Shown: positions 44,252 through 64,000 of the stretch, in pieces
Numbering within the stretch: the first letter of the stretch is position 1
Layout of the letters: each line of letters opens with the position of its first letter
From: Zhaonella formicivorans
GTDB taxonomy: Bacteria; Bacillota; DUOV01; Zhaonellaceae
Length of the DNA: 64,000 nucleotides
Reading direction: 5' to 3'
Assembly: GCF_004353525.1 (NCBI RefSeq)
Contig: NZ_CP085524.1
Location: 1,274,142 to 1,338,141, forward strand
Translations under genes and position numbers: made by a program
Notes under the pieces: generated by a model
What the model was told of the DNA's origin: nothing
The model's database searches: none
Seen by the model: the letters and a program-made list of their open reading frames with translations, nothing else

Positions 44252-44256
44252 CAAGT

Positions 44257-45882
44257 TCAACTCCCTAAAAAAACAAATTTATGGCTAAAATCCCCTAACG
44301 AATTATGCTGCTCCAGCAAGCCCGCGATAACTCCCGCTCCATACTTAAAAAGATAGGGAAACACATTGAAAACTGTTTCTTGTAAACGGTTATACGGATA
44401 CAGGTTGCGCGCAATGTACTCCAGATCCTTTCGTAAGTCTTGATTCTCTCTGCTGTACCTTTGCCAAACCTTATCTTCCAGATATTTTAGCTGGTCCATA
44501 ATCCGTTCTAAATTTTCGCTTTGTAACCCCTGCAAATCATTGTATTTTTCTAGAAATTCCCGGCTAAAGTGGTTTATTTCCCCTGCAATCCGCTCCCGGA
44601 AAAGGCTGAATTTCTCTTTGATTCCTAACTTATCCCGGGCAATTAAAATTTTCGTCATTCTCCCCGTCAAGCCTTGCCAAACCTCCGCCAAATCGGTCAC
44701 TTGGTACCGGTTTAGCATTACTTCCACCTGCGGTTCGACCAAAGTAAAGCTGGCTCTGGGATAAAGTATGGGCATTTCTCCGCCGAAGGCAGCAAAAACA
44801 TTCTTGAGTTGGGCCCAGTAATTGATTTCGCCGGGACCTGCTACGTAAACTGCTGTGGGGAGAAGACAGTCCTGTAAAACCGGCCTTAGGATTACATCGG
44901 GACTTAAGGTTTCCGGATTAAACCGGATCAACTGTTCTATTTCTTCCCTGCTGTATAAACTTTGCCCCGCCCTGAACCCCCCTTCCCAAGCTAAGAGAGG
45001 TTCCCGGTTACCTTGCCTGTAAAGGAAAAGGTGAGTGTGGCTGGACGATTTTAAAACAGCAGGGGTGCAACCGAGCTTTTCAATCAACAGGTTAGACTTC
45101 TCCACTCCCTGGTGAAATTCATCTTGAATTTGCAAAGCTTTTTGGTAGAAAGGCGCTGCCATCCGGCGCAACCCGGGCAGCATCGGATTAAAATAGACTA
45201 AACCGTATTGACTGAATAAACTTAACAGCAAACGACCGAACCAGTCTGCCAAAGTGCTGCTCGCAGCAAGCTTGTCCAGCAGCAGTCCCGCATATGCTTG
45301 CTTAAAAGCCGCATCAATAGTTTGGGACTTGAGTTGTTGCACTAGCCGAAAGCAATGCTCTCCCGTTGAAACTAAGCCAGCGGCAGGGGTACCTGCCGGC
45401 TTGTAAGCAAGGGTCAACCGCTGAATTTTGCCTTCCCTGTTGAGACAAAAGATGTGATTGACCTCCTGATAATCGTGGTCCTCCCCGGCGCTCCAAAAGA
45501 CCGGTACAGCGCGGATATTGTATTTGCTGCGCAAAACCTGGCACAAAAAAACAGCAGTTAACGTTTTGTAAATGGTGAGCAGCGGCCCGGTAAAAATACC
45601 TACCTGCTGTCCGGTAACTACAGCCACTGCGTCTTCCTGGGCCAACTCGGCGATACTCCTTAGTGTCTTGCTGTCAGCACCAAGGCGCCGGTTATCTTCG
45701 TCCAATATTGCGGCTAATTTAGAGCGGTCACCTGTCCACTTTTCCTGCAGAAAACGCACTCTTTTTTCTATGGGGAACTCTGCAGGATTATAGGTAAAAA
45801 GTTCTTGGACACGGTTAAAGTCCTGAACGTACAACCGGTAAATGTCCTTTACCGCAGGAAAAGCAACTGGTCGACTCCACAT
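44257..45882 (-). CDS. bshC: Bacillithiol biosynthesis cysteine-adding enzyme BshC
   Basis: 541 residues, the full family length. The Rossmann-like core has VAVVTGQQVGIFTGPLLTIYKTLTA and VPVFWSAGEDHDYQEVNHIF, followed by YVAGPGEINYWAQLKNVFAAFG and a long coiled-coil region (about 385-470). BshC adds cysteine to GlcN-malate to give bacillithiol. The nearby mraZ matches the bshC-mraZ neighbourhood of Bacillus. bshA is not in the window. Confidence 0.95.
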   Translation of the reverse strand: MWSRPVAFPAVKDIYRLYVQDFNRVQELFTYNPAEFPIEKRVRFLQEKWTGDRSKLAAILDEDNRRLGADSKTLRSIAELAQEDAVAVVTGQQVGIFTGPLLTIYKTLTAVFLCQVLRSKYNIRAVPVFWSAGEDHDYQEVNHIFCLNREGKIQRLTLAYKPAGTPAAGLVSTGEHCFRLVQQLKSQTIDAAFKQAYAGLLLDKLAASSTLADWFGRLLLSLFSQYGLVYFNPMLPGLRRMAAPFYQKALQIQDEFHQGVEKSNLLIEKLGCTPAVLKSSSHTHLFLYRQGNREPLLAWEGGFRAGQSLYSREEIEQLIRFNPETLSPDVILRPVLQDCLLPTAVYVAGPGEINYWAQLKNVFAAFGGEMPILYPRASFTLVEPQVEVMLNRYQVTDLAEVWQGLTGRMTKILIARDKLGIKEKFSLFRERIAGEINHFSREFLEKYNDLQGLQSENLERIMDQLKYLEDKVWQRYSRENQDLRKDLEYIARNLYPYNRLQETVFNVFPYLFKYGAGVIAGLLEQHNSLGDFSHKFVFLGS

Positions 45883-48243: not shown

Positions 48244-48280
48244 GGGCCTCTACCTCGAAAAAGGTGGAAGCCCCTCTTTT
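48244..48280. terminator. Bidirectional terminator of two convergent genes
   Basis: Stem GGGCctctACCT / AGGTggaaGCCC with a CGAAAA loop, then TCTTTT on the plus strand. On the minus strand it covers the last codons of the P-loop gene and is followed by TTTGTTTAAAA. Confidence 0.75.
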
Positions 48281-49353
48281 GAAATCCGGTCCTTTTGCAA
48301 AATTTGCTGCAGCAAGTTTTTCCCGCCGTCCTGCATTACATCAAAAACCGGAACCCCAATGTTTTCCCGCATACTTTGGAGCAGAAGCTGTTTATCAACG
48401 TAAGCCGGTTCATAGTCGTTGGCCTCGTAGCGATAACGAGGATAAAAAGGGTTAACGGTTATTGCCAGCAATTCTACTTGCTGCTTCAACAGCACCTTGA
48501 TGCCATGCTTTTGAAGAGTCCTTATATACTGGTAACTTTGGGTTACATTGCCCGAAATAAGAATCTTGATAGGGTCCGCAAAAACCAAAGCAGGTTTACT
48601 GTCCTGCTCCAACAGGAATTTAACCAACTCGGGCCAGCACTTTTCCCCCACCACACCGGGAATATATACAAAGGCCGTTTTGGGCTGCCAATGGAGATAA
48701 AGTTCCTGAATATCCTGCTTATCAATTAAAAAAGCTACCGGGCTTTCTATGATTTTTCCCCTGGCAGTCACAAAGGTAACGCTATTGTAACCCTGCAAAG
48801 AGCGGCCCTGGTAAGAACCCAAGCTACAAACGCCGCTAATGGCGCCGGTTTCTTCAACGAGCCTTCCTATGTCCGGTTGCCTGGCAGCACCGGTAGCCAG
48901 GATAAAGCCATCTGTTTCCACCATGGGGGCCATCCTGTTTAAGGCGCCATCTACCAGAATTAACCGGGCCTCCAATTCTTGCAATTTAGCAATAACAGTG
49001 CGCAGTTGACTGCTTTTGTTTGGTCCCGCTATTAAAACCTGGCCTTGTTCCTTTACCCTGGCGTACACAATTCTGCCCAAAGGAGTTAACATATTTGTAG
49101 TTTCAATGATTTCCAATCTGGCTGTACTGACCTTTAAGCAGCGCTCAGCCGTAGCAACCAATTGTCCCGGCAACAGGGTTAAGCGCGGTTTTGGCAATCC
49201 GGTTACGTTATCTATCCGTTCCCCGTCATACCCGATGCTTGTTAGACCAAACATCATGTCTTTTTTATTCAGTTCGTCAATAATGCTGGAAGTGGTTGTT
49301 GTCTTACCTGTGTTTTTTGCCGTACCTGCGATACCAATAGCCATAGAATGCAT
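48250..49353 (-). CDS. P-loop protein, possible reactivase of a B12-dependent mutase
   Basis: 367 residues. The Walker A is IAGTAKNTGKTTTTSSI (about residues 8-24), of the type with extra Lys seen in MinD-like/DRTGG-type NTPases; LILVDGALNRMAP serves as Walker B. The C-terminal half is less conserved. The pattern GTAKNTGKTT resembles, from memory, the KamB-type reactivase that restores lysine 5,6-aminomutase. It lies 500 bp downstream of a cobalamin-dependent mutase on the same strand, which fits. No MutS-like partner (KamC) is present. The P-loop is certain; the reactivase role is inference. Confidence 0.6.
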   Translation of the reverse strand: MHSMAIGIAGTAKNTGKTTTTSSIIDELNKKDMMFGLTSIGYDGERIDNVTGLPKPRLTLLPGQLVATAERCLKVSTARLEIIETTNMLTPLGRIVYARVKEQGQVLIAGPNKSSQLRTVIAKLQELEARLILVDGALNRMAPMVETDGFILATGAARQPDIGRLVEETGAISGVCSLGSYQGRSLQGYNSVTFVTARGKIIESPVAFLIDKQDIQELYLHWQPKTAFVYIPGVVGEKCWPELVKFLLEQDSKPALVFADPIKILISGNVTQSYQYIRTLQKHGIKVLLKQQVELLAITVNPFYPRYRYEANDYEPAYVDKQLLLQSMRENIGVPVFDVMQDGGKNLLQQILQKDRISKEGLPPFSR

Positions 49354-49848: not shown

Positions 49849-51666
49849 CTAAATGGTTGTGACTGTCCCTCTGCCTGCTCTGCCGGGATAGGCCCCTTCC
49901 TCCCTGCTGCCCAGTAAACCGGCGTATATTGCCTGCACAAAATCTCCTGTCTGCAACACTTCTTGCAGTACCTTTTCAATGCCTGCCACTATATCCTGGC
50001 TCCACTCTTCTGCTTTTTTCGTAGGCGCAATCCCGGCCTGGCCAAAGAACCTGAAGCCCTCCATAGTTGCCCGCAAGGTGTCGATTTTAGAGGGCACGGA
50101 AATGGGTCCTCCTGAGTATGCTTCATCGGAAGAAGCAATTGAGATGGCATCTACTTCCAGAGCAGAAGCCAGGCAGGCATGCAGCGCCGTAGTCATGGAA
50201 GACTGCACCCTGTCTTCAGAGTGGGTAAGAAAACCAATAGGTGCACCCGGCCAAATAGGAGCATCTACAATGGAACGAAGCGCAAAAATCTTGGCTGCGT
50301 TAAAGTCTATGTAGTTATCCTCCATCTGGCCGCTGATCATTACTTCCGGTGAATAGCAGAATAAAGGCTGCAAAATAGGCTTAGCCCCTAAACGCACCGC
50401 CAGATCGGCAACGATCAGCATTCCGGCAAATGCTTTATAAGCAGGAACACCGCACAGTTCTTCATTGGTTACCACGTCAAAGGGCATGTTATACTTAATA
50501 GCATACTTCATGGAATGGTAAGCATCAACTAAAAGCCGCTCCGGATCAGTCCCAGCGCCCAAAGCTCCATAGCAAAAATTGATTTTTGTTAAGTCCGCTC
50601 CAATTTTACCTGCTAAAACTACTGTTTCAGGGGTATTCAGCCCCCGGTGGGCCCTGACCTGCCATAAGGTGCTTTCCTGCAAAGCACCGTGAATCCTGTT
50701 TAAGTTGGCTGGGGTAATTACAGTCCCATCCTCCTGATGAGTCAGGAAACCGTCTAAAAACCCTTCCGTCCTTGCTCCCCAAGAGGGATCAAAGTGAACC
50801 ACGCCGTCCGCTCCCCAAGCCTCACTTACCTGTACATGGCCGATATCAAGGTATGGACACCCTGTGCCATACTGATTGAAAACAATAGGCTTCTTGCGGG
50901 TATGCTGTAATTTTTGAACGGACATCCTGGCTTTCACATCTTCCAGGTACCTTTCTAACCCTTTAACCTCTTCGGGTGTAAAGCGACGGGTTTTGGGATG
51001 CAGTTCTCCCGTCTCGTAGTACTTTCTAGGTATTTCGCCGCACAGTTTGGGATATTCAGCCATAAACTCTTTATTCTCCTGGCGGTTTAGCCAGCGGTTA
51101 ATATCCCACAGTTCATCCCGCACCTTAGCCCTTTCAACACCGGGAGAGGTTTTATTCTCCACCCAGGCCAGGATCATTTTGGAAATTACTTCCAAAAGGC
51201 TGCCAATATTGCTGTGCCTATACTGATAACTATAGCCGGCAGTCATATCCTGCTTTGTTTTCTTAACCTGTACTCCTTCAGTGGATAGTTCCCTGCCTTC
51301 CACAAAGGCAACAGCCTGCTCCACAGTAGTGCCTGGCCCGAAACCGGCATCAAAACCAAGTTCTGCTGCCAGTTCAGGTCGGATAGCCATGCCGCCGATT
51401 CCTAATGTCACCTTTTCCCTGACCCCGGCAGCATCTGCTAAATCAACAAATTTTGCCAATACCTCGGCTACGCCGTATCCCAAAGTACGGCTTAAAAGGA
51501 CAGTATCCACTTTTTTATCTACTATTTCCCGGACTATTTCCTCTGGAGGCAAATCGGGCGGTAATAAAATTGTCTCATGCTGTGCCTCATCTAAACCCCT
51601 CTTAATCATTTTCAAACCAATATCGTGAACAGGATCCAAAGGGGCAAGCAAAACTCTTTTACCCAT
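49849..51666 (-). CDS. Cobalamin-dependent mutase with N-terminal B12 domain, substrate unknown
   Basis: 605 residues. N-terminal B12-binding domain (about 1-125): LDPVHDIGLK (His14 as the expected lower ligand, Gly17), VLLSRTLGYG and LGIGGMAI, the order of base-off/His-on cobalamin proteins; the Asp stands three residues before the His, not two. A helical linker (150-250) leads to a C-terminal barrel (255-600) with FNQYGTGCPYLD, GADGVVHFDPSWGA, KINFCYGALGAG, VTNEELCGVPAYKAF and ASSDEAYSGGP. The two-domain logic is that of glutamate mutase (S and E subunits) in a single chain, but the barrel does not match one known enzyme in my reading. AGGAGG lies upstream; the start overlaps the small gene before it by 8 nt. 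Confidence 0.82.
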   Translation of the reverse strand: MGKRVLLAPLDPVHDIGLKMIKRGLDEAQHETILLPPDLPPEEIVREIVDKKVDTVLLSRTLGYGVAEVLAKFVDLADAAGVREKVTLGIGGMAIRPELAAELGFDAGFGPGTTVEQAVAFVEGRELSTEGVQVKKTKQDMTAGYSYQYRHSNIGSLLEVISKMILAWVENKTSPGVERAKVRDELWDINRWLNRQENKEFMAEYPKLCGEIPRKYYETGELHPKTRRFTPEEVKGLERYLEDVKARMSVQKLQHTRKKPIVFNQYGTGCPYLDIGHVQVSEAWGADGVVHFDPSWGARTEGFLDGFLTHQEDGTVITPANLNRIHGALQESTLWQVRAHRGLNTPETVVLAGKIGADLTKINFCYGALGAGTDPERLLVDAYHSMKYAIKYNMPFDVVTNEELCGVPAYKAFAGMLIVADLAVRLGAKPILQPLFCYSPEVMISGQMEDNYIDFNAAKIFALRSIVDAPIWPGAPIGFLTHSEDRVQSSMTTALHACLASALEVDAISIASSDEAYSGGPISVPSKIDTLRATMEGFRFFGQAGIAPTKKAEEWSQDIVAGIEKVLQEVLQTGDFVQAIYAGLLGSREEGAYPGRAGRGTVTTI

Positions 51667-51916
51667 GGTTAACCTCCTTTACGTGATCATCAACACCCAG
51701 CCAGCCGTATTTATCTCCGGAGCGGTGGACATAAGCTCTGGCTCTAACCCTGACCCCGGGCCCTTCGTGCTGAATAAAAACTACATCAACGTCCTGAAAT
51801 CCTAATTCCTGCATTAAGCTTAAAATCAGGTTTTTGCCCTCCTCGGCATTGCTGCAGACCAAGAAAGTTTCAAGATCCAGCGCATCCATTACTCGATCAA
51901 GAGTTTTTGATGGCAT
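51659..51916 (-). CDS. Small protein translationally coupled to the mutase (85 aa)
   Basis: 85 residues: MPSKTLDRVMDALDLETFLV, then CSNAEEGKNLILSLMQELGF and VDVVFIQHEGPGVRVRARAY. AGGAGG precedes the ATG. The stop overlaps the mutase start by 8 nt, so the two are translated together, as expected of a small subunit or chaperone. It is not OraS-like (wrong length and sequence) and I do not recognise the family. It is the first gene of this two-gene unit; the plus-strand gene starting at 52027 is divergent. Confidence 0.8.
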   Translation of the reverse strand: MPSKTLDRVMDALDLETFLVCSNAEEGKNLILSLMQELGFQDVDVVFIQHEGPGVRVRARAYVHRSGDKYGWLGVDDHVKEVNHG

Positions 51917-52026
51917 CTACAAACCTCCTCTAAGAAAATTTTAAAAAAGTTAATTCTAACCGCTCACATTTTGCTCAGTCCTGAATAAGGTATACACTAA
52001 CCAAACCCTGAAAGGATGTGACTGAC

Positions 52027-52881
52027 ATGGAGGCTAGACTTCAGCCGAACTTCAGCCGCTTATGTAATGATTTTCTGGAACAAGACAAATGCCCGTGTAT
52101 ACTGGCCGAGCTAAAACGCTGCCCTGTTTGCAGCCACCTGCAAGGCGGCGAACTGTGTAATTGTGACTGGGTTGGAACATGCGTTTATACCCATTACCGA
52201 TTTAGTGAAGTTGCTCCTTTACCCGCTAACCCGGACCGTAAAAAAGCCAATATAATTAAAGCTTTCCCCTTGAGCCCTGGAGGCATGCTTATTTACGCAC
52301 AAATCTCGCAGCAAATGCTTTTAGCCCTTAATGAATTCAGTCTTATCCAGCTGAGGCACATCAAACCTCCCGCTGTTTTACGTGTTCCGGCAGCAGTTTT
52401 GGAAGTATTTGATGAGCAAAGTATGATTGAATTGGCAGTTTTCACTAACGACCTCCAATGTCAGCATCTCTTGCAAACGCTACCGGAAATAACAGTGGAA
52501 ATTTTAAGGGACCAAATAGTCTTCGGCCTGGTACCTCTGTCGACTGTCAAGAACTCCAAGATACTTGTAATAGCTTCGGGTTACGGTTGCCTTTTGACTC
52601 CCAGCATAATCAGAATGCTTCAGAGCGCGGGGAATGAAGTTACTACGGCTTTATGTGCTTCCCATCCGGTAATTCAGGAAAGAGTCAAAGCATTAAGGAG
52701 CCAGATTTTACCTTTTGACTCCAAACATTTGCCTATTAAAGAACTGCTCAGCCAAAAATACAGTTTCATCTGCACCCTCGCTCAGGATACATTAAACAAA
52801 AAATTGACCAATTCCCTTAAAGACCTACACCTCAATATACCAATAGCCCTTTTAAACAATGATTTGTTTCTGAATAGCTAA
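52027..52881 (+). CDS. Cys-rich, FNR-like redox protein, function unknown
   Basis: 284 residues from ATG 52027 (AAAGGA 10 nt upstream; a GTG at 52018 is too close). The first 60 residues hold seven cysteines: CPC, CPVC, CNC and GTC around DWVG, enough for one or two iron-sulfur sites. The rest (about 85-280) resembles a ferredoxin-reductase pair: a beta-barrel stretch, then ILVIASGYGCLLTPSIIRMLQSAGNEVTTAL as a nucleotide-binding strand-loop-helix. The Gly-rich loop is degenerate. It is divergent from the mutase pair and convergent with the permease. A redox partner for the mutase or the flavoprotein is possible but unproven. Confidence 0.65.
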   Translation: MEARLQPNFSRLCNDFLEQDKCPCILAELKRCPVCSHLQGGELCNCDWVGTCVYTHYRFSEVAPLPANPDRKKANIIKAFPLSPGGMLIYAQISQQMLLALNEFSLIQLRHIKPPAVLRVPAAVLEVFDEQSMIELAVFTNDLQCQHLLQTLPEITVEILRDQIVFGLVPLSTVKNSKILVIASGYGCLLTPSIIRMLQSAGNEVTTALCASHPVIQERVKALRSQILPFDSKHLPIKELLSQKYSFICTLAQDTLNKKLTNSLKDLHLNIPIALLNNDLFLNS

Positions 52882-52892
52882 GATGCAAAAGT

Positions 52893-52922
52893 GGGGCAGT
52901 ATCACCTACTGCCCCGTTTTTT
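52893..52922 (+). terminator. Terminator after the Cys-rich redox gene
   Basis: Perfect 8-bp stem GGGGCAGT/ACTGCCCC with an ATCACCT loop followed by GTTTTTT. The minus-strand side (ACTTTTGC) is weaker, but may also stop the permease transcript that ends at 52960. Confidence 0.9.
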
Positions 52923-52959
52923 GCAAACTAATTAATACCTGCTTTGATAAAGCAGTTTC

Positions 52960-54360
52960 CTACATGATGATGATGGCTACTATGGTAGTTGCCGCTAATC
53001 CCAGTACAACTGGCAGGAAGTTTCGGCGAGCCAGTTCGAAAGGCTCAACCCCACAAATAGCTGCCACGGGAATTAAGCCCCACGGTACCACAGTACCGCC
53101 TCCAACCCAAATTGTAGATATTTGACCCAAAGCTGCCAAGACGCCAACATCAACGTTGGCAGCAGTTCCAAATGTTCTTGCCAGCGAACCGACCAGTGGT
53201 AACCCGGAAAAACCAGAACCATCCAAGCCCGTTATTACTCCAATAATTAGCTGTATGAACGCTATCGGAATCCTCGTCAGAGGAACAACGGCTGAAAGGG
53301 CATTGCCCAAATCACCCAATAACCCTTGCTCAGTCAAAGTGAATCGGGTTTCTCCCACTATCCTGGGCAGGATTTCCCCAGAACCTAAAAAGAAAAATCC
53401 CCCAATCACAACTACTGGCGCAAAGATCTTGATGCCAAACATAAAACCGTCACGGATGTAGTCAGTAATTTTTTCCAATGAGTCTACTCCATACTGGCAT
53501 ATAGCCGCTACGGCCATGATGATAGCCGCCGTTCCGCCTACCAGGGCTGTTGCATCGCCACCTTTAAGATCAAATACAACCAAAGCCACAATTACGCTCA
53601 GAAAAGCTAAAGGGACTAACCACGCTATGAGGTAAGAGGTAAAGGTAAATTGTCGTTCAACTGCTTTTGCCTCTTGTTCCGCAAAACGACGTCTTTCTTC
53701 TTCATGGACTTCTTTTTCTTTGCGTAAAATACCTTGCAGCACCCAAAAGGAAGCAATAGTTGTGACAAGTGTCATGGTTATAAATAAGGGCACGCTGGCG
53801 CTGATTACACCGCTTGCACCTATGCCAGCGGCCTTCCCGCTGATTCCCGGAGCTCCTTGGATGATATAGTCGCTGGAAAGGGCAACCCCATGGCCAAAGA
53901 TGTTCATTGCCATGGCGGCACCAATGCTCGGTAAACCTGCTCTGACAGCTACCGGAAGCATAATAGCCCCTATTAAAGCAACTGCTGGCGTAGGCCAGAC
54001 AAACCAAGCCACCACAGCCATACCAATACCCAATAGCCAGAAGGCTAGAGTGGGGCTTTTCATCAGTCTGGCAGCAGGTTGCATAACCAGATAGTCAGCA
54101 CCAACGTCCGCCATTGCTTTAGACATAGCCACAACTATGGAAATTACTACAATTATCTCCCAAAAAACACCTCCCGCTGCTACAAGGGCATTGTAGACTG
54201 TTTGCACAGCCCCAATCAAACTGCCTTTAGCTACAAACCCAAAAATAACCAGACCTGCTATGCACGGTAAAAGCGTATCTCGCCGCATGACCATTACTGC
54301 TAGTACAACCAGTACAGTAACTACATAGATCCAATGAAGCGCATTTAATTCTACGGGCAT
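52960..54360 (-). CDS. Multi-helix permease of the ion-transporter type
   Basis: 466 residues from ATG 54360 (AAGGAG 8 nt upstream). About 11-12 membrane helices: LHWIYVVTVLVVLAVMVM at the start, a central charged loop (about 215-245, KEKEVHEEERRRFAEQEAKAVER), and LIIGVITGLDGSGFSGLPLVG plus ISTIWVGGGTVVPWGLIPVAAICG near the C terminus. The helix layout and NIFGHGVALSSDYIIQGAPG loop recall GntP/CitM-like secondary transporters of organic acids and amino acids. It is in the operon with the flavoprotein and the PLP enzyme, so it likely imports their substrate. Confidence 0.75.
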   Translation of the reverse strand: MPVELNALHWIYVVTVLVVLAVMVMRRDTLLPCIAGLVIFGFVAKGSLIGAVQTVYNALVAAGGVFWEIIVVISIVVAMSKAMADVGADYLVMQPAARLMKSPTLAFWLLGIGMAVVAWFVWPTPAVALIGAIMLPVAVRAGLPSIGAAMAMNIFGHGVALSSDYIIQGAPGISGKAAGIGASGVISASVPLFITMTLVTTIASFWVLQGILRKEKEVHEEERRRFAEQEAKAVERQFTFTSYLIAWLVPLAFLSVIVALVVFDLKGGDATALVGGTAAIIMAVAAICQYGVDSLEKITDYIRDGFMFGIKIFAPVVVIGGFFFLGSGEILPRIVGETRFTLTEQGLLGDLGNALSAVVPLTRIPIAFIQLIIGVITGLDGSGFSGLPLVGSLARTFGTAANVDVGVLAALGQISTIWVGGGTVVPWGLIPVAAICGVEPFELARRNFLPVVLGLAATTIVAIIIM

Positions 54361-54394
54361 TGCTACGTCTCCTTCCAAGTTCAGCAGCGACTAA

Positions 54395-55678
54395 CTAGAT
54401 AACGCTCTTGGCAAAGATGTCTGTCATACCTGCTTTTTGTACTCTTTGTTTAATAGCCTCTACATCAGTTGTATATAATCCCAATTCCTGCATGCGCGCA
54501 AAATAAACAGAACCTGAGAAAGTGAATTTCTTGCTGAGACCTTCCTCGGTTTTCATCCGCTCGTTTACATGGGCGATAGCATCACCCACAGCCAGCTCAG
54601 TCGGAATTTCAACCAGTTCTTTGTTGTTAGCCCATCTGACTGCGTTATGTCCTGCTAATGTTCCGGTACAAATGGCTTCAGTGTGGCCAACCAAGAGACC
54701 TGCCTTTTCACCGCCGCAGAACAGATTTTCAGCACCGATTACTTTCAGTGTATTATCCCGAGGTGATAAAGCCAGATAACGCATGGAGTTACCAATGCCA
54801 CCGGAATAGGGATCTTCAAAACGAGCATTTTCAAAGCCTGGTATTTGCCGCAATTGGTCTAAAGGATAGTATGGAGTCATTAATTTTGCGTGACCGGTAT
54901 CCAGCAAGATCACGTTTTCAGCAAATTCTTTCAACGCATACTGCTGACAAGCTTTCTTGGTCAGGGCCTCATCGCCTTTTTGTAATTCTTTCGGAATAGG
55001 AATTACTGCAACACCGGTTTTATTCAATTTTTCCTGGATTTCTTCGCTCAGTGAATCTTTATGCAGTTTGCAGGAGCCGCTCATAGCGCCGTATGATCCG
55101 TCAGCTTTCTTGCCCATGAACTCTTGCACACCCAGCTTAGCGGCTATGCTGAAACGCGGACCGAAGGTCGGGCAGCGGTAGATGCACATAGCGCACCCAT
55201 TGCCATACTTGGTGCAGTTTCCTTGTGGACCGGCGGTACCGGTTGTTTCCACAAAAACATCACCTTCGAAACGTTCATCGTTATCAGTCAATACGGCTAC
55301 AACCTTGTTGCCGTTGTTTTCAATTCCTTTTACCCTGGACATTAATCTTACGTCAACGCCCAAATCGATCAAGTGCCTTCTGACAGCCGGCTCAATACGA
55401 GCCACATCATACAAGGATGCATGTTTGTGACCAGGGAATTCAATATTGCGATGTCTGGACTCCCGGTCGGAAATCTGGAATAAATCCCCGCCGCCCATGG
55501 CAATCATTTCTTCGGTTGCGGTGAAACGCCCGTTATTGCGCATAATTCCACCGACCAAACCAGTACCTAAGAGCATATCGGTACGCTCCAGAAGCACAAC
55601 TTCAGCCCCTGCTTTGCGGGCAGCCACTGCAGCGGCAGAACCGGCCCAGCCGCCGCCTACGACTACTACTTTAGTCAT
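54395..55678 (-). CDS. FAD-dependent oxidoreductase with four-cysteine motif
   Basis: 427 residues from ATG 55678 (AAAGGAGG 7 nt upstream). The N-terminal FAD loop is VVVGGGWAGSAAAVAARKAG (residues 5-24), and ENLFCGGEKAGLLVGHTEA is the second FAD contact near residue 340. In between, Cys155, Cys162, Cys165 and Cys169 (CTKYGNGCAMCIYRCP) form a ferredoxin-like CxxCxxxCP group with a fourth Cys six residues before. It resembles FAD_oxidored/GidA-like flavoproteins. The cysteines could carry a [4Fe-4S] cluster and pass electrons to or from FAD. The substrate is unknown; the operon suggests an amino or imino acid. Confidence 0.78.
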   Translation of the reverse strand: MTKVVVVGGGWAGSAAAVAARKAGAEVVLLERTDMLLGTGLVGGIMRNNGRFTATEEMIAMGGGDLFQISDRESRHRNIEFPGHKHASLYDVARIEPAVRRHLIDLGVDVRLMSRVKGIENNGNKVVAVLTDNDERFEGDVFVETTGTAGPQGNCTKYGNGCAMCIYRCPTFGPRFSIAAKLGVQEFMGKKADGSYGAMSGSCKLHKDSLSEEIQEKLNKTGVAVIPIPKELQKGDEALTKKACQQYALKEFAENVILLDTGHAKLMTPYYPLDQLRQIPGFENARFEDPYSGGIGNSMRYLALSPRDNTLKVIGAENLFCGGEKAGLLVGHTEAICTGTLAGHNAVRWANNKELVEIPTELAVGDAIAHVNERMKTEEGLSKKFTFSGSVYFARMQELGLYTTDVEAIKQRVQKAGMTDIFAKSVI

Positions 55679-55779
55679 TTTTTTTCCTCCTTTGTTAATA
55701 AAATACGTCACTGGCAATAATTGATCATTTTCATGGGAATGAGACACCCAGCGGCATGTCCCCTCTGCACAACCCGCAT

Positions 55780-57252
55780 TTAGTCAAGAAGTCCGGCATA
55801 CTTGCAGGTAATTTCAATTAAACGGAACAAAGCCTTAATTCCATAGCGAGTAACATCTTCAATCAACATACCGTTTTCATCAGTTGTACCAAGGTCAGGT
55901 GAAATGTAGATGTTACCGTCATAAGCCACAGTCGGGATAACACCAAACTGGTTCATGCCGGACTGGAAGATGTTGGTGCCTGCATACATATCTTCGATGG
56001 AGAAGATGGGTACACCCATTTGCCCATTCTTCCAGGTACCTTCGTAGTTGATCTCAACAGCCCTGGAGTTGTACGACTTGTTAATGATAAAGCCGTCTTT
56101 CAGGTGCTGCGGTATGTTAAGGTTCTGGAATTCTTCAGTGATAATCCTGTATAAGTCATCAACAGGCTTGGTTAATACTTCCGGATGGTCTCTCAAGACT
56201 TTCAGGGCCTGAATTTGGGAAAGCAGAGCTTCTTTACCCGGGTCAAAGGTTACATAAGCAGCTTTACCGTAGGAAGCGGTAGTGCCGTAACGGTCGCCGT
56301 GGACGCCCAGTGCCCTGCGAATTTGTACCATAACGTCTTCTTTACCGATAATCAGACCGCTGGTAGCTGCGCCTGATGTTTTATCCATACTATAGATAAC
56401 TACGTCAGCACCGCTCTTTCTTGGGTCATGACCTACAAACGGAAGTCCCCAAGCGTTATCCACTACGTAAGGCAAATCATAGGAGTGGGCCAAATCAGCC
56501 ATTAATTTGTTTAAGAGCGGTGTGCCGTCTTCATCTTTTACACCATAACCATACCCGGGAGTTTCGTAACCCAAGGAAGTGAATCCTGTCAGCATGGGTT
56601 CATGGATCTCTGCATACATGGCCATTTTCTCGATGGATGCTTCCGGATCCACTTCAGTTAATAGAGGCACCGGCCAATATTTGATACCATGACAGTCATA
56701 CTTGGCTCCTTCCAAGGGAACAATCACGGTATCAGTGTTATTTTGACGTTTGCCGTAGAAACCTAACTCACCCGGTGTTGTTCCACGGTCAGCAAATATA
56801 TCCTTAAATTTGGGCGGGAACGGGCGGCCGTAACCTCCATGGTGGTGCAAGTGTTTTTCCCAAGGAATAATGTATCTTGCTCTGTAGTTATCGCCCCTGC
56901 CTAAGTTAGGCGGTGTAAACAGGGTGTCAAAAGTTACCCACAGACCGGCTTCACATGTTGAAGTAGCCATAGCATCATACTCGTCGCCGTATACGTCTTT
57001 AACAATCTCTCTGATTTCATCAACAAGTTTTGCTAAGGGGATAACTTCCCTGGCACCACGCTCGGAAGCCTCTAAAATATCTTTACGCAGCGGAGCCGGG
57101 CAGCCGGATATTCCTCCGGTCAAACCGAATTTACCCCTGATATCTGTTGGAATGCCAATTTCATCTGCGGCTTTCTTTGCTTCAGCATAGATGTTGCCAA
57201 TATTTGCCTGCAGTTGTTTATACATCTGAAATTTATATTTTGGTTTTGCCAT
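55780..57252 (-). CDS. Fold-type I PLP-dependent enzyme, substrate unknown
   Basis: 490 residues, AGGAGG at good distance from ATG 57252. Aspartate-aminotransferase fold: the PLP-lysine is Lys291 in [17 protein letters not shown], and Asp265 in [11 protein letters not shown] binds the ring nitrogen. His-rich [15 protein letters not shown] (132-146) lies in the N-terminal part. The overall look is between SepSecS/SelA-like and beta-eliminating lyases; I cannot place it. It is followed by the flavoprotein and preceded by RidA, which usually protects PLP enzymes that release enamines. Confidence 0.78.
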
Positions 57253-57267
57253 TGTAATAAAACCTCC

Positions 57268-57726
57268 TTACTTTACTTTAACAATCATTTCCACTTCAAC
57301 GGCAGCATCGATGGGCAGCTCGCTGACACCTACCGCTGAACGGGCATGCTGTCCTGCTTCACCAAAAATTTTGCCAAGCAGTTCAGAAGCGCCGTTGATT
57401 ACTTTCGGCTGACCGCTGAACCCGGCCGCACTATTTACAAAACCTGTCACCTTAACTATTTTTTCCACTTTATCCAAGCTGCCAACTAAGCTCTTCACTA
57501 CGCTTAAACAGTTGATAGCGCATATTTTTGCAGCTTCATACCCTTGTTCCTCGGATACTTCTGCGCCTACTTTGCCTTTATACTTCAGTTCACCATTGAC
57601 AAAAGGAATTTGTCCCGAAGTATACACATAACCATCAATTAAAACGCCAGGCACGTAGGCAGCAACAGGTTTAGGAGCTTCCGGAATTTCCAGGCCAAGC
57701 TCTTTTACTTTTGCTTCATAAGACAT
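57268..57726 (-). CDS. RidA/YjgF-family deaminase
   Basis: 152 residues with RidA core motifs: [64 protein letters not shown] and [30 protein letters not shown] (the Arg in HARSAVG holds the carboxylate). RidA proteins hydrolyse reactive enamine/imine intermediates, so a PLP eliminase or an amine oxidase in the pathway is expected. It is the gene before the PLP enzyme (15 nt). Confidence 0.92.
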
Positions 57727-57809
57727 TTCTACCCCCCCTTTCAGGCTTATTTTTTATTTATGTAGATAGGTGCAAGGTTCTCTGCTTATTATGCGTTACT
57801 CCAATGTTA

Positions 57810-58253
57810 TTATTCGCTTGGTTTAACGCAGATTACCTCATCGCCTAACTGCAAACCTTGTTCCACACCGGTTTCCCTGTTGGAATTTTTCACGATTATG
57901 TTCAGGTGATTTGGCATATGGGTTTCATCGAAACCGGCAATGACCCCTACGCTCTTACCCCCTATAGTCAGCTGGTCACCGGCTACCATTACCCCTCCCT
58001 GTGTCACTTCAAAAAAACCTAGATAAGCTATCTTGTTCACGGTTTTGCCGGGACCTGCCTCCATCTCGTCGGTAAGGATAAGCTCGTGAATCTCGTGTCG
58101 GCACAGCGCCCGGGAGATAGGAGTCATCAGCTGCAGGCTCCTGCCTTCCAGTTTGCCATCCAACACCACCACCAGCTTGCCTTTAATTGGAGTTTTCGCT
58201 GCGTAAGGGTTGGCTTTAAACATCCCTGCTTTATACGGATCAACGGTTGACAT
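57810..58253 (-). CDS. Glucitol-IIA-like small protein, first gene of the island operon
   Basis: 147 residues from ATG 58253, with AAAGGAGGTGA 5 nt upstream, the best ribosome site of the operon. The part from about residue 85 (YLGFFEVTQGGVMVAGDQLTIGG, then GFDETHMPNHLNIIV) is like the PTS glucitol/sorbitol IIA beta-barrel. No EIIB/EIIC or HPr is nearby, so phosphotransfer is unlikely. It may be a binding or sensing protein related to a DUF family. It is the first gene after the paired operators. Confidence 0.6.
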   Translation of the reverse strand: MSTVDPYKAGMFKANPYAAKTPIKGKLVVVLDGKLEGRSLQLMTPISRALCRHEIHELILTDEMEAGPGKTVNKIAYLGFFEVTQGGVMVAGDQLTIGGKSVGVIAGFDETHMPNHLNIIVKNSNRETGVEQGLQLGDEVICVKPSE

Positions 58254-58329: not shown

Positions 58330-58417
58330 TACTCATCATTGGTGAGGAGCAATAGGTTAGAAAAATGGTGTTTCCATTAATGATGTTCAGCCAACATTTA
58401 CTCATCATTGGTGAGTA
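58330..58417. promoter_or_regulatory. Paired 19-bp dyad operators upstream of the island operon
   Basis: TACTCATCATTGGTGAGTA (58399-58417) and TACTCATCATTGGTGAGGA (58330-58348) are the same dyad; arms TACTCAtCA/TGgTGAGTA differ at one position. They are 69 bp apart, between the regulator stop (58435) and the start of the operon at 58253. They are the obvious sites for the FCD-type regulator encoded next to them. I could not settle a -35/-10 pair here. Confidence 0.75.
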
Positions 58418-58434: not shown

Positions 58435-59163
58435 TTACTTCTTGTTAAGCCTCTCCCAATACCTTTCTACATCGCAAATTAAGCTTTCGATGTGATTAAC
58501 CATGGCCCGGTAAGCTGCATCGGGCTTGTGTTTCTGCACCGCTTCCAGAATCTCCCGGTGATCTTGGACCATGGTACCCCGCAGCTGGTGCCGAATATAT
58601 TCCAGTACCGGGGAGAACTGGCCTTCCTGTTTGATCAGTTCAACTACGGCAATCAGTATTTTGTTGCGGCCTGCTTTAGCCAACAGGTGGTGAAACTCGC
58701 TGTCCTGCTCCACCCCCGATTGGCCCGAATTAACAAGCTGCTCTTGCCGTTCCAAAACTTCTAACATGTGCCTGACTTCCGTGGGCGTAGCATGAAGGGC
58801 AGCCAGGCGGGCAATTTCCCCTTCCACAGCCCGCCTAGCCACCAGGATATCAATTAAGTCCTGTTTGCGGTGGGTATTAAAGCTTTTAAGCAATTCGGAG
58901 CCGTAGAACACCCTTTGGCGTTCCCTTTCCAGGTTTTCATAGCGTGCTGACCCTGCAGCAGTAAGTGTACGGCCTTGAAAGCCAACACGCTTTGTATAGC
59001 CTCTTGTATCCAACTCCCTGAGCAGCCTGCCGACGGTTGCTTCACTCAGTTCCATCCCCGCCAAACGTAGGGCTTCTTTTAACACACCTGACCCAAGAGG
59101 CTGCTCAGTTTTATGCAGTTCTCCAAGTATAATACGCTCTTGTTCCTCTTTTTCAGATAGCAT
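58435..59163 (-). CDS. Transcriptional regulator with winged helix and FCD domain
   Basis: 242 residues. N-terminal winged helix (about 1-72, LGELHKTEQPLGSGVLKEALRLAGMELSEATVGRLLRELDTRGYTKRVG), which looks like the HTH_12/NrpR type rather than the GntR type. C-terminal FCD domain (about 95-235) with LVARRAVEGEIARLAA, EFHHLLAKAGRNKILIAVVELI, HREILEAVQKHKPDAAYRAMVNHIESL; the Asp-His-His set binds a metal and an organic-acid ligand in this family. It lies upstream of, and in the same direction as, the island operon with the paired operators in between, so it is its likely controller. Confidence 0.85.
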   Translation of the reverse strand: MLSEKEEQERIILGELHKTEQPLGSGVLKEALRLAGMELSEATVGRLLRELDTRGYTKRVGFQGRTLTAAGSARYENLERERQRVFYGSELLKSFNTHRKQDLIDILVARRAVEGEIARLAALHATPTEVRHMLEVLERQEQLVNSGQSGVEQDSEFHHLLAKAGRNKILIAVVELIKQEGQFSPVLEYIRHQLRGTMVQDHREILEAVQKHKPDAAYRAMVNHIESLICDVERYWERLNKK

Positions 59164-59206: not shown

Positions 59207-60220
59207 TTAATGAATAACTTTCGTAAGCACAAGCACGATAAACACGGCGTAAAAAGCACCGCCAACCATTAGAATATTAGGTGTCAAATATTTCTTTACG
59301 CGTATTTGCCAGTAAACCAAGAGTGCTGAGGCCAGAGCCAAAACTGCGCTTAACGTGGCGCCAAGGGTGAGATTCCAAGGGGTTAAAGCTATTCCCAACG
59401 CAGGAATCACCGAACTTTGAAAAACCATTGCGCCGGTTATATTTCCCAGCGCGAGAGTGTCCTTGCCTTTGCCAATCCAGATAATGCTGTTGAATTTCTC
59501 CGGCAGTTCTGTAGCAACCGGAGCGATAATCAAAGCCAAAACAAAAGTTGGAATCCCTAAAAACTTGGACAAGTGCTCCACTGAGTCAACGAAAATATTG
59601 GCACCGAAAACTATCAACCCTAAAGCAATTGCAATCTGCAGCAAAATTATGCCTAAGCTAGGAGACTTACTTTTTTTCGCTAAGAACAATGGGCTAAGTT
59701 CGTGGTCCTCACCGATAGTTTCTTCTTCATTAAGAGTCTGGTAAACATATACGCCATATGCAATTACCAAACCGGCGGCTACGATCAGCTTCAAATTATG
59801 ATTTCCCAAAAACGCTGCCAGGATGGCCACCGTATACACTATCAGGAAAAAGCCTAAATCCCTGGTCATTACCGAAGTATCAACATGCATTTTGGGAAAT
59901 TCAGGTCTTTTTCTTTTATTGGCTACTACCGCTATCCCGGTTATAAACATTGCTAAAGTTGATAGCATAAATGGCGCACCCAGGATCGCTCCCACTCCAA
60001 TATGGGCTCCTTCAGCCTCGCCACCAAAAATGATAGCGATCACAGGAATCATTGTTTCGGGCAACGCCGTACCTACGGCAGCCAAAATGCTGCCAACAGC
60101 ACCCTCCGACAAATTCAATTTCTTGCCCAACCATTCCACTCCATTGGTAAACACCTCAGCGCCAAAAAGAATTATAACCAAACTTATTACTAACAAAATT
60201 AGTTCCCAGAGTTGCTCCAA
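59207..60220 (-). CDS. Sodium/calcium exchanger-type antiporter
   Basis: 337 residues from TTG 60220 (GAGGTGA 5 nt upstream); an in-frame GTG at 60250 lacks a site. Ten membrane helices in two inverted halves. The alpha-repeats are GSILAAVGTALPETM and LIIAPVATELPEKFN, each with the Glu needed for cation binding. CaCA family, cytoplasmic membrane. It lies upstream of the regulator, in the same direction; whether it belongs to the island is unclear. Confidence 0.88.
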   Translation of the reverse strand: MEQLWELILLVISLVIILFGAEVFTNGVEWLGKKLNLSEGAVGSILAAVGTALPETMIPVIAIIFGGEAEGAHIGVGAILGAPFMLSTLAMFITGIAVVANKRKRPEFPKMHVDTSVMTRDLGFFLIVYTVAILAAFLGNHNLKLIVAAGLVIAYGVYVYQTLNEEETIGEDHELSPLFLAKKSKSPSLGIILLQIAIALGLIVFGANIFVDSVEHLSKFLGIPTFVLALIIAPVATELPEKFNSIIWIGKGKDTLALGNITGAMVFQSSVIPALGIALTPWNLTLGATLSAVLALASALLVYWQIRVKKYLTPNILMVGGAFYAVFIVLVLTKVIH

Positions 60221-60305
60221 CTTCTTCACCTCATTTAATTTGGTAAACACTAGTATTTTTATCGTGCGTAAATCCTTTTATGCAGTTGCTACTTTTATGC
60301 AGTTG

Positions 60306-61067: not shown

Positions 61068-61252
61068 GTACTTTACCCCTTCCCGCTAATCATCATCGAT
61101 GAGCGATTATAATTATCAGTTCTACGCTCGCATGAAAAATCCTTCTTGTTTCGACTTTTTTTAAAAAATTTTTTGATGTATTTTGTATTCACCTTGAGAT
61201 ACTGTAAGAGCCTTGCTTTCACATGTTTTTGACTTCCTCATACAATTGCAAA

Positions 61253-61475: not shown

Positions 61476-62324
61476 TTAATATTCGTTGGGCATCTGATTT
61501 AGCTGGGCCAAAGTAAACACTGGTCCGTCCAGGCAAACATAGCAACTCCCGATGTTGCATCGACCGCATTTGCCAATGCCGCACTTCATCCGCATTTCCA
61601 AAGTAGTTATAATCTGTTCCGGCGTATAACCCATTTTCGCCAGACTCTGCAGCACGAATTTGATCATAATGGGCGGACCGCAGGTGATGGCCACTTTGCC
61701 TTCCGGCGATGGATTGATTTGCTCCAGAAAAGCGGGAACAAAACCTACGTTGCCGGACCAATTTTCATCCCCTTTGTCTACAGTAACGTCAACCTGCATA
61801 TCCATCACTTTGGGCCAGTTCTCAAAAAGATCATCTTTAAAACAAAGATCCTGCGGGGAACGGGCCCCATAGATCACATGCAGTTTGCCGAAGTCCTGGC
61901 GGTTGGCAATACAGTAGTTGATGAGAGACCTTACAGGCGCTAAGCCAATGCCGCCGCCAATAAACAATAGATCCTTCCCTTTGCATATTTCAATAGGAAA
62001 ACCGTTACCGTAAGGGCCCCTAATGCCTATCTGCTGGCCTACCGCAGCTTCATGGAGGGCCTCAGTCAACATGCCCACTTTCTTGATGGCAAATTCCAGA
62101 TGGTTTTCTCCTTGGGAGGTGATGGAAAACATTGCTTCACCGATGGGGAGCATGGAAACCATGGCCAGTTGGCCCGGCAGGGGGGTAAAAGGTTTTCCGT
62201 TTTCGGTTGTCACATGAAAAGTTTTGACGTCGGGCGTCTCTTCTACAATTTTAATGATTTTTCCCACAACCGGGATTAAAGGGTTCATAACTGTCCCCTG
62301 CTCAGCTAATGCTTGGTTAGGCAT
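61476..62324 (-). CDS. FAD/NAD(P)-binding oxidoreductase subunit (FlxA/AsrB-like)
   Basis: 282 residues. Ferredoxin-reductase fold: FAD barrel with PGQLAMVSMLPIGEAMFSI, FIGGGIGLAPVRSLI for NAD(P)H, and TCGPPIMIKFVLQSL. The C-terminal [2Fe-2S] site is MKCGIGKCGRCNIGSCYVCLDGP with four Cys, as in PyrK and AsrB. It takes electrons from NADH for the iron-sulfur subunits upstream. It overlaps the preceding gene by 8 nt. Confidence 0.88.
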   Translation of the reverse strand: MPNQALAEQGTVMNPLIPVVGKIIKIVEETPDVKTFHVTTENGKPFTPLPGQLAMVSMLPIGEAMFSITSQGENHLEFAIKKVGMLTEALHEAAVGQQIGIRGPYGNGFPIEICKGKDLLFIGGGIGLAPVRSLINYCIANRQDFGKLHVIYGARSPQDLCFKDDLFENWPKVMDMQVDVTVDKGDENWSGNVGFVPAFLEQINPSPEGKVAITCGPPIMIKFVLQSLAKMGYTPEQIITTLEMRMKCGIGKCGRCNIGSCYVCLDGPVFTLAQLNQMPNEY

Positions 62325-63318
62325 CCAGGCTCACCTCCCCTATTTGCTTGATAATCCGCGTAATGTCCACATTGACCGGACACTTGACAACGCAGCGTCC
62401 ACAGCCGACGCAGCCCCACTTCCCGTACCTCTCAGGAATATACTGCAGCTTGTGCAGGAAACGCTGTCTGACCCGCTCCTTCTTGCTGGGTCTTGGATTG
62501 TGACCGCCGGCCATTAAAGTATACTCCTGATACATGCAGGAATCCCAGCAGCGAAACTTGACACCGCTCTCCCCTCTCGTTTTCCCTTGAATGTCAAAAC
62601 AGTGGCAAGTAGGGCAAAGATAAGTGCATGTCCCACAGTTCAGGCACTTTTTGCAGATTTCATTCCACAGGCTGTGCTCAAACATCTTCTGCAGCTTAGC
62701 AGTCAAGCCTTCAACCTGCAAAACCATGGTACATTCCGCCGTAGGCTGCGTCACGCCGGCCAAATCTTCCAATTGCGCAGAGTTTTCTTCCAGGAACTTC
62801 TTGCCTTTGTCTGATTTTGCTTCAAAAACCAATGCCTCGCCGGCATCCCATGCCATTACATCCGCCAATTCGGTCCCGGAAGGATCTACTCCCAGGGAAC
62901 TGCAAAAACAAGTTGGTTCCGGTTTACGGCAACCTAAAGCAATTACCAGTGTATTTTCCCTCTTGTTTTTATAGAACAGGTCTTCATAACCTTTGGTTAA
63001 AAACACGTCATCCAACACTGCTAAGCTCTGTACATCACAGGGTCTGGCCCCAAAAAGCACTCTGGGCTCACAGGCCGCAGCAATTTCCTCCACCGCAGCT
63101 TCTTGTTTATGAGCTTTATAGCAATACATGTGCTCTGTCTGCGGGAAGAACAGCTCTTTCGGGGGAACAACCGTATTCCGCTCCAGAGCTAACTGTACGC
63201 CTGCCTGATATGCAGTAAAGCGCGTAGTACCTTCCACCTCAGCAGGAACAAAAAGCTGATAGCCGGAACTGATTTTCTCCAAAAAGTTGTTGAGATTGTT
63301 CTTTTTTACGCCAAGCAT
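62317..63318 (-). CDS. Iron-sulfur subunit (AsrA/FlxB-like)
   Basis: 333 residues. An N-terminal part with RPCDVQSLAVLDDVF and GCRKPEPTCFCSSLGVDPSG, as in anaerobic sulfite reductase A and hydrogenase beta-type subunits, then two ferredoxin sites: CKKCLNCGTCTYLCPTC (about 220-240) and GCVGCGRCVVKCPVNVDI (about 305-322). It carries electrons between clusters. The stop overlaps the next gene by 8 nt and the start is 11 nt after the third gene, so all three form one complex or operon. Confidence 0.88.
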   Translation of the reverse strand: MLGVKKNNLNNFLEKISSGYQLFVPAEVEGTTRFTAYQAGVQLALERNTVVPPKELFFPQTEHMYCYKAHKQEAAVEEIAAACEPRVLFGARPCDVQSLAVLDDVFLTKGYEDLFYKNKRENTLVIALGCRKPEPTCFCSSLGVDPSGTELADVMAWDAGEALVFEAKSDKGKKFLEENSAQLEDLAGVTQPTAECTMVLQVEGLTAKLQKMFEHSLWNEICKKCLNCGTCTYLCPTCHCFDIQGKTRGESGVKFRCWDSCMYQEYTLMAGGHNPRPSKKERVRQRFLHKLQYIPERYGKWGCVGCGRCVVKCPVNVDITRIIKQIGEVSLDA

Positions 63319-63329
63319 TACCTCACCCC

Positions 63330-64000
63330 CTACATAAACTCTTCCGGGTCTTCAGCTTTGTAAAGACCAAGAGGAGGTAATGTCTCGGTATCAAGTCCGG
63401 CCTCATATTCACCGAACAGCTCTACAATGTCTTTAGCAATTTTACGGTTCAATTTCATGATCGGAACTCCCATGGGGCAAACCCGCTCACATTCACCGCA
63501 TTCTATGCATCTGCCCGCCACGTGAAAGGCCCTGATAATGCCATAGACTTGGTTGCCTGTAGGAGTTACATCCCTCTCCAGCCATGTTTGGCCCTGATCG
63601 AAACAGCAAACTGTACAGTTGCAAGCCGGACAAACATTGCGGCAGGCATAGCACCGGATGCAGCGAGAGTATTGCTTGGTCCAAAATTCGTATTTCTCAT
63701 CAGGCGTCATCTTTTCAATTTCTTCCACTCCGGCAAAACGCTCCACTTCTGCTGTTACCGCAACCTCATCCAGTGCCACCTTTTCCCCCAGCAGCATGTC
63801 ATATACTACCGGGTTATGATGGGTGCAGTAAGTGCATTTTTCTTCCAGCGGCACTTCAGAGGCTTTTTCCTGTCCAAGCAGGGGAGCCTTCTTTGCGCTC
63901 TTCATTCCCGGGCACGGCAAACCAATCAGGAAGAGATTTTCCCTTTTGACCTGTTTATCCTGTACCAGCCTGTTGACTCCCCTGGAGTCGCATCCCTTGA
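63330..64000 (-). CDS. Two-cluster ferredoxin-type subunit, 5' end beyond the window
   Basis: The frame stays open to the right edge, so the gene is longer than the visible 222 codons. The upstream part reads KGCDSRGVNRLVQDKQVKRE and NLFLIGLPCPGM, the motif with which coenzyme F420-hydrogenase/formate-dehydrogenase beta-like iron-sulfur proteins bind their substrates; a TTG at 63920 is therefore internal. Two [4Fe-4S] sites follow: CIRCYACRNVCPACNC and CIECGECERVCPMGV, with an extra CTYCTHH before. With the FlxA- and FlxB-like genes it suggests a NADH-linked electron-bifurcating or heterodisulfide-reductase-type module continuing to the right. Confidence 0.85.
   Translation of the reverse strand, partial: KGCDSRGVNRLVQDKQVKRENLFLIGLPCPGMKSAKKAPLLGQEKASEVPLEEKCTYCTHHNPVVYDMLLGEKVALDEVAVTAEVERFAGVEEIEKMTPDEKYEFWTKQYSRCIRCYACRNVCPACNCTVCCFDQGQTWLERDVTPTGNQVYGIIRAFHVAGRCIECGECERVCPMGVPIMKLNRKIAKDIVELFGEYEAGLDTETLPPLGLYKAEDPEEFM

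Follow-up and report, generated by a model that had tools for sequence, protein, structure and literature searches.

A conserved, operator-linked gene unit built around a domain-permuted relative of lysine 5,6-aminomutase in Zhaonella formicivorans

We analyzed a 64,000-nucleotide stretch of the Zhaonella formicivorans genome (contig NZ_CP085524.1, positions 1,274,142 to 1,338,141; hereafter the window), in which a cobalamin (B12)-binding enzyme lies within a run of apparently related genes. On the minus strand the run begins with a regulator with an FCD domain, two operator copies, a DUF6917 protein, a RidA-type protein, a pyridoxal phosphate (PLP) enzyme, a flavin adenine dinucleotide (FAD) protein and a permease; after the permease come a divergent plus-strand gene and then a small protein, the B12 enzyme and a KamB-like reactivase. 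The features, in window coordinates, are as follows.

58435–59163, minus strand: FCD-domain transcription regulator with an HTH_12-type N-domain (PF07729, E 1.3e-24; PF08461, E 3.6e-11)
58401–58415, no strand: operator copy 2, identical to copy 1 (CTCACCAATGATGAG), one mismatch to the consensus core CTCATCANTGATGAG
58332–58346, no strand: operator copy 1, a 15-bp palindrome, CTCACCAATGATGAG, one mismatch to the core CTCATCANTGATGAG
57810–58253, minus strand: DUF6917 protein (PF21891, 162.8 bits), earlier called IIA-like
57268–57726, minus strand: RidA-family protein with the catalytic Arg motif (PF14588, E 3e-25; PF01042, E 2e-17; relatives in the PDB)
55780–57252, minus strand: PLP enzyme of fold type I, 490 amino acids, SMDK lysine motif (weak profile matches round the lysine, and fold hits)
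54395–55678, minus strand: FAD protein of the MnmG/TrmFO-like fold family with a four-Cys motif (PF01134, E 4e-35)
52960–54363, minus strand: permease of a distant CitMHS/ion-transporter type (Pfam CitMHS, E 1.7e-5, below cut-off)
52018–52881, plus strand: PRK05802-like FAD/nicotinamide adenine dinucleotide (NAD)-binding, PyrK-like protein with a Cys-rich N-terminus, divergent (NF004470, E 1.8e-28, below cut-off)
51659–51916, minus strand: small protein of 85 amino acids, a detached dimerisation domain of the KamE/ornithine aminomutase type (hhalign to the KamE N-domain)
49849–51666, minus strand: B12 enzyme, 605 amino acids (Pfam B12-binding, E 6e-15)
48250–49353, minus strand: KamB-family reactivase-like protein with P-loop AGTAKNTGKTT (NCBIfam NF052386, 250 bits against a cut-off of 210)

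All the genes named in a preliminary description of this DNA were recovered from open reading frames and profile matches where that description had placed them, on the minus strand. Its start codon for DUF6917, the ATG at 58253, also held and lies behind a good ribosome site, AAAGGAGGTG. Among open-licence papers we found nothing on DUF6917 and no description of such an operon.

Gene neighborhoods were compared over 48 loci (one contig stretch is counted twice, L001 = L061, which leaves the conclusions unaffected) and over a phylum sample of 398 genomes, 38 of which carry relatives of the whole B12 enzyme. This comparison had been set beforehand as a refutation test, and it found the neighbors conserved together. 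The small protein lies directly upstream of the B12 enzyme in 46 of the 48 loci, and the kamB-like reactivase is present in 45, adjoining the B12 enzyme in nearly all. The other members occur less uniformly: PLP enzyme in 44 loci, DUF6917 in 42, regulator in 37, FAD protein in 36, RidA in 31 and permease in 18, with the PRK05802-like protein recurring in about 15. Flanks differ from locus to locus and are mostly housekeeping genes. All 38 genomes with the B12 enzyme also encode the PLP enzyme, compared with 2 of the 360 others (Fisher p 4e-51). Furthermore, pairwise identities of the B12 enzyme, PLP enzyme, FAD protein and reactivase covary over 32 loci (r 0.81–0.90), as expected if the genes are inherited together. 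B12 enzymes in the other genomes of the 38 share 52–79% identity with the window protein; a contig scan with this protein returned 8 relatives, all from Firmicutes, and plasmid records held no match to it. The cluster is also present in phototrophic heliobacteria, including Heliorestis convoluta; the passages found in the report on that genome (PMC7143216) do not discuss the cluster genes.

The paired operators of the preliminary description stand, as two copies of CTCACCAATGATGAG, between the regulator and DUF6917. At two mismatches or fewer, the core occurs at 68 sites in 879 kb of loci, most of them a short way upstream of DUF6917 or the small protein; five control palindromes gave 0–2 sites. 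Exact copies of the core occur in 30 of the 38 genomes that encode the B12 enzyme, compared with 8 of the 360 others, where seven of the eight hits fall inside coding frames, as chance sites would lie. Genome-wide, the window genome holds 30 two-mismatch sites, and such sites are therefore weak evidence alone. With its FCD domain and a conserved palindrome upstream of the targets, the regulator conforms to the FCD-domain type with a palindromic operator. Members of this family typically sense small carboxylates.

Beyond the cluster, the operator precedes permease paralogues, two in the window genome (L182) and others in eight further genomes. It lies 53 bp upstream of an operon for a pyruvate-synthase-like 2-oxoacid:ferredoxin oxidoreductase that ends in RidA (L196); a second such operon (L187), 1 kb from an operator site, is a weaker case. 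In two genomes it precedes a DHDPS-family aldolase accompanied by a peptide-type ABC transporter, in three a NIF3-like/amidohydrolase/transporter operon (one of these shows the first gene only, at a contig end) and in one an enolase-superfamily/octopine-dehydrogenase-like/M24/proline-racemase operon. Three genomes have it upstream of a sodium/calcium-exchanger-family gene beside the regulator. Substrates hinted at by these genes (2,4-diaminobutyrate or ectoine, hydroxyproline, hydantoin- or opine-type compounds) were weighed but not adopted; each comes from one or a few genomes. Two candidates for this regulon lie next to the cluster.

59207–60250, minus strand: sodium/calcium-exchanger-family transporter, possible regulon member (PF01699, E 6e-30)
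61089–61103, no strand: weak third operator-like site, two mismatches, uncertain, ~20 bp ahead of a PHP-domain gene

We conclude that the cluster genes are one conserved, co-regulated unit in anaerobic Firmicutes. As had been proposed, the unit looks catabolic, is equipped with its own regulator, operators and permease, and is unlike the lysine, ornithine and glutamate operons; the true kamB/kamD/kamE operon and the glmE gene of the window genome both lie away from it. The former (L095, G000:C1:388000-402000) appears to be a complete classical lysine fermentation operon, with KamB, KamD, KamE and their neighbors, and the separate glutamate mutase gene is locus L117.

HMMER recognized only the B12-binding domain in the 605-residue enzyme: PF09043 gave no hit at E <= 1, and neither PF09043 nor PF16554 gave anything for the B12 enzyme or the small protein. 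Because these models are silent, profile–profile comparison was needed. Using hhalign, residues ~155–589 of the B12 enzyme aligned with a profile of KamD from the lysine operon of the window genome and its relatives (E 1.8e-6, 401 columns, score 56), compared with scores of at most 26.7 in 40 column shuffles, 20 for the reversed profile and 21 for GlmE. The positive control, KamD against OraE, gave E 2e-30, which places the window enzyme on a far more remote branch. An AlphaFold model of the B12 enzyme (nine sequences, mean predicted local distance difference test (pLDDT) score 68, predicted template modeling score 0.68) had as its best fold match the alpha subunit of lysine 5,6-aminomutase (1xrs_A, E 6e-13) and as its second ornithine aminomutase, and its Rossmann part matched KamE. 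Similarly, the small protein aligned with the KamE dimerisation domain over 38 columns (hhalign, E 1.7e-5, score 38; shuffles at most 19.5). In the B12 enzyme, a KamE-type B12 domain (1–135) is joined to the front of a KamD-like part, made up of N-domain and TIM barrel; dimerisation, B12 Rossmann and TIM barrel domains are all present, permuted over two proteins. The gene earlier flagged as a possible reactivase passes the KamB model and is predicted to act in that role. The B12 enzyme thus descends, very distantly and with permuted domains, from the lysine 5,6-aminomutase lineage (KamD/KamE), to which the small protein and KamB-like reactivase also belong. The preliminary description had seen nothing KamD- or KamE-like here; of its interpretation, the regulated catabolic-looking unit stands, and the idea of a mutase unrelated to KamD/KamE gives way to a domain-permuted homologue.

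Two other affiliations were rejected. Kinship with glutamate mutase, prompted by a QVR..TP motif, has no profile support: the GlmE family model PF06368 did not match the window B12 enzyme, and hhalign to GlmE gave a probability of 0.5%. For the methylmalonyl-CoA mutase family, PF01642 had no hit anywhere in the genome. Other arrangements were seen elsewhere in the sample. In one genome KamD and KamE are fused in a single 869-residue protein (L110:5421-8030), another rearrangement in the lineage, and frames of about 600 residues with an N-terminal B12 domain and a weakly GlmE-like C-terminal part (G010:C1:1111493, G056:C1:1101221, G094:C2:377940) belong to a different B12 enzyme family.

The PLP contacts of lysine 5,6-aminomutase (PMC3958899) were mapped onto the B12 enzyme along the profile alignment, and the equivalent residues were counted over 49 sequences. 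The lysine that binds PLP (K144 beta) is replaced by Leu25 in all 49, at a gap-free place. Of the barrel contacts R184, S189, S238, R268, N299 and Y263, only the stacking tyrosine is kept (Y263 = Tyr366): Ser238 is Arg341 in 49 of 49, Arg268 is Ala or Gly and Asn299 is leucine, the last in a weakly aligned stretch, and the Gly-Gln-Ser phosphate loop aligns to a gap. The cobalt-ligand histidine is conserved. Judged by these residues, the simplest inference is an adenosylcobalamin (AdoCbl) enzyme that works without PLP. With the PLP site largely gone, its chemistry is probably not the PLP-assisted amino shift of the family.

The separate 490-residue PLP enzyme gave weak matches to Cys/Met, SelA/DgaE and aminotransferase profiles round the PLP lysine and fold-type-I structure hits. 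Its model is poor (mean pLDDT 57), so fold type is all that can be read from it. Divergent paralogues (27–54% identity) occur away from the B12 enzyme at L135, L136, L137 and L138; some adjoin RidA, M24 peptidase, MmgE/PrpD-like or transporter genes and could reveal the chemistry of the PLP enzyme. The RidA-type protein exceeds the PF14588 and PF01042 cut-offs and has the conserved motif HARxAVGVxELP; arginine in the C-terminal motif of Rid proteins marks the catalytic type. In the FAD protein the four-Cys site described earlier proved to be C-x6-C-x2-C-x3-C, invariant among relatives. Its wider family is present in 114 of the 398 genomes, and the nearest subgroup mostly tracks the B12 enzyme. 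A second, widespread subgroup of this FAD/Cys4 flavoprotein (~50–62% identity; L129, L143, L144) stands in several genomes beside a PRK05802-like FAD/NAD protein. Both here (window positions 61476–63998) and in several relatives, the cluster borders on genes that encode iron-sulfur and FAD/NAD electron-transfer subunits (dihydroorotate-dehydrogenase-B-like, 4Fe-4S). At 43550–45882 the window also encodes the bacillithiol synthesis proteins BshC and a PIG-L deacetylase (BshB-like).

Taking these observations together, we lean slightly towards a regulated catabolic operon of anaerobic Firmicutes for an amino acid or other amino-carboxylate, with a PLP-free AdoCbl step, a PLP lyase, RidA and 2-oxo acid oxidation. 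Gene set, linkage, co-occurrence, homology and operator are computed results; the chemistry that we infer from them would run as follows. The permease would import the amino-carboxylate. Using AdoCbl without PLP, the B12 enzyme would generate a substrate radical and rearrange the carbon skeleton or eliminate a group, with the substrate carboxylate held by residues such as the invariant Arg338 and Arg341, and the KamB-like reactivase would keep the enzyme alive. Elimination by the separate PLP enzyme would give an enamine or imine, which RidA would hydrolyze to a 2-oxo acid and ammonia, and the 2-oxoacid:ferredoxin oxidoreductase would oxidize the 2-oxo acid to an acyl-CoA. The FAD/Cys4 protein and its PyrK-like partner may balance electrons, and the FCD regulator may sense the acid or an intermediate.

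Several points weigh against this proposal. RidA, the FAD protein and the permease are missing near the B12 enzyme in part of the loci, and, apart from the permeases, the aldolase and the NIF3/amidohydrolase operons, regulon members were seen in just one or two genomes. That the FCD protein recognizes the palindrome is suggested by position and conservation. The KamD homology is remote and the B12 enzyme model only moderate, the reading of the PLP site depends on the alignment, and the invariant Lys19 could in principle hold PLP another way. This last point leads to an enzyme that would still be a PLP-dependent 1,2-aminomutase like lysine 5,6- and ornithine 4,5-aminomutase, with relocated PLP residues such as Lys19 and another diamino acid as substrate, for example 2,4-diaminobutyrate, whose product the PLP enzyme and RidA would deaminate to a 2-oxo acid. 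In favor of this reading, the enzyme shares fold and lineage with the PLP/B12 aminomutases, the stacking tyrosine is retained, and ammonia-lyase action followed by RidA fits chemically. However, none of the 49 sequences retains an equivalent of the PLP lysine, the phosphate loop, Ser238 or Arg268, and a lysine at the place of Lys19, five residues after the cobalt histidine, is also common in the B12 domains of PLP-independent enzymes. We consider such an aminomutase unlikely, though deserving of real weight.

A purpose other than carbon and energy catabolism, namely biosynthesis or detoxification of an unusual amino acid, would suit the presence of the cluster in heliobacteria such as Heliorestis convoluta, which are not known as amino acid fermenters, and the housekeeping genes that often flank it. 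We think this improbable: the unit has its own permease, several paralogues of which share the operator, and together with the 2-oxoacid:ferredoxin oxidoreductase, the hydrolases and the ABC importers of the regulon this indicates that a compound is taken up and degraded. The B12 domain alone weakly matches corrinoid proteins of the MtgC/MtbC type, which would suit methyl transfer by a corrinoid protein or some other non-radical use of B12, but both halves of the enzyme match radical aminomutases best and a KamB-type reactivase is attached, which makes this very improbable indeed. Hardly any weight can be given to genes of separate known pathways brought together by chance, or to an ordinary lysine, ornithine or glutamate operon: automatic annotation does name the reactivase KamB, but linkage in 48 loci, co-occurrence in 38 of 38 genomes and a shared operator argue otherwise, as does the presence of true kamBDE and glmE elsewhere in the same genome.

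To our knowledge, few AdoCbl radical reactions have been described, and additions to the list are rare. If confirmed, an aminomutase relative without PLP would show a radical scaffold changing its chemistry and would allow the contributions of B6 and B12 in the lineage to be told apart. As the unit is common in anaerobic Firmicutes, carbon and nitrogen flow in sediments, soda lakes and hot springs may now go unannotated or be misread; given the KamB hit, automatic annotation will label part of the unit lysine fermentation. A conserved operator and cultured hosts among the heliobacteria make the unit directly testable. The B12 enzyme branches off the B12 aminomutase lineage, and the pathway in which it would act is probably undescribed. 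We hold as an evenly balanced proposal that it represents a third branch of the lysine/ornithine aminomutase lineage, one that no longer uses PLP: a new AdoCbl carbon-skeleton mutase or eliminase serving an amino acid route not yet described (B12 enzyme, PLP lyase, RidA, 2-oxoacid:ferredoxin oxidoreductase), held in one regulon in about one-tenth of the sampled genomes of the phylum, heliobacteria included.

Among known systems, glutamate mutase (GlmS/GlmE) with methylaspartase would be similar in outline if the B12 enzyme were a carbon-skeleton mutase followed by an ammonia-lyase, and QVR..TP looks similar by eye, but profiles give the window enzyme no support and the true glmE is elsewhere. 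The fold-type-I PLP lyases (cystathionine and methionine gamma-lyase, DgaE/SelA) share core and PLP-lysine region with the window PLP enzyme; the likeness is limited to ~60 residues round the lysine, and the protein, about 490 residues long, forms a separate family with no Pfam model. D-ornithine 4,5-aminomutase (OraS/OraE) has the same fold class and is the second-best fold match to the B12 enzyme, whereas the TIM barrel profile match is weak, the domain order differs and no OrtAB or diaminopentanoate dehydrogenase adjoins the window enzyme. Closest is lysine 5,6-aminomutase (KamD/KamE/KamB; PF09043, PF16554, NF052386), which is alike in all three domains, in the reactivase and in the cobalt-ligand histidine and is the best fold match. 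Unlike in KamD/KamE, the domains of the window enzyme are cut and joined differently, identity is ~21% and the PLP site is lost, and in place of the enzymes of the lysine pathway the unit has a separate PLP enzyme, RidA and FAD protein.

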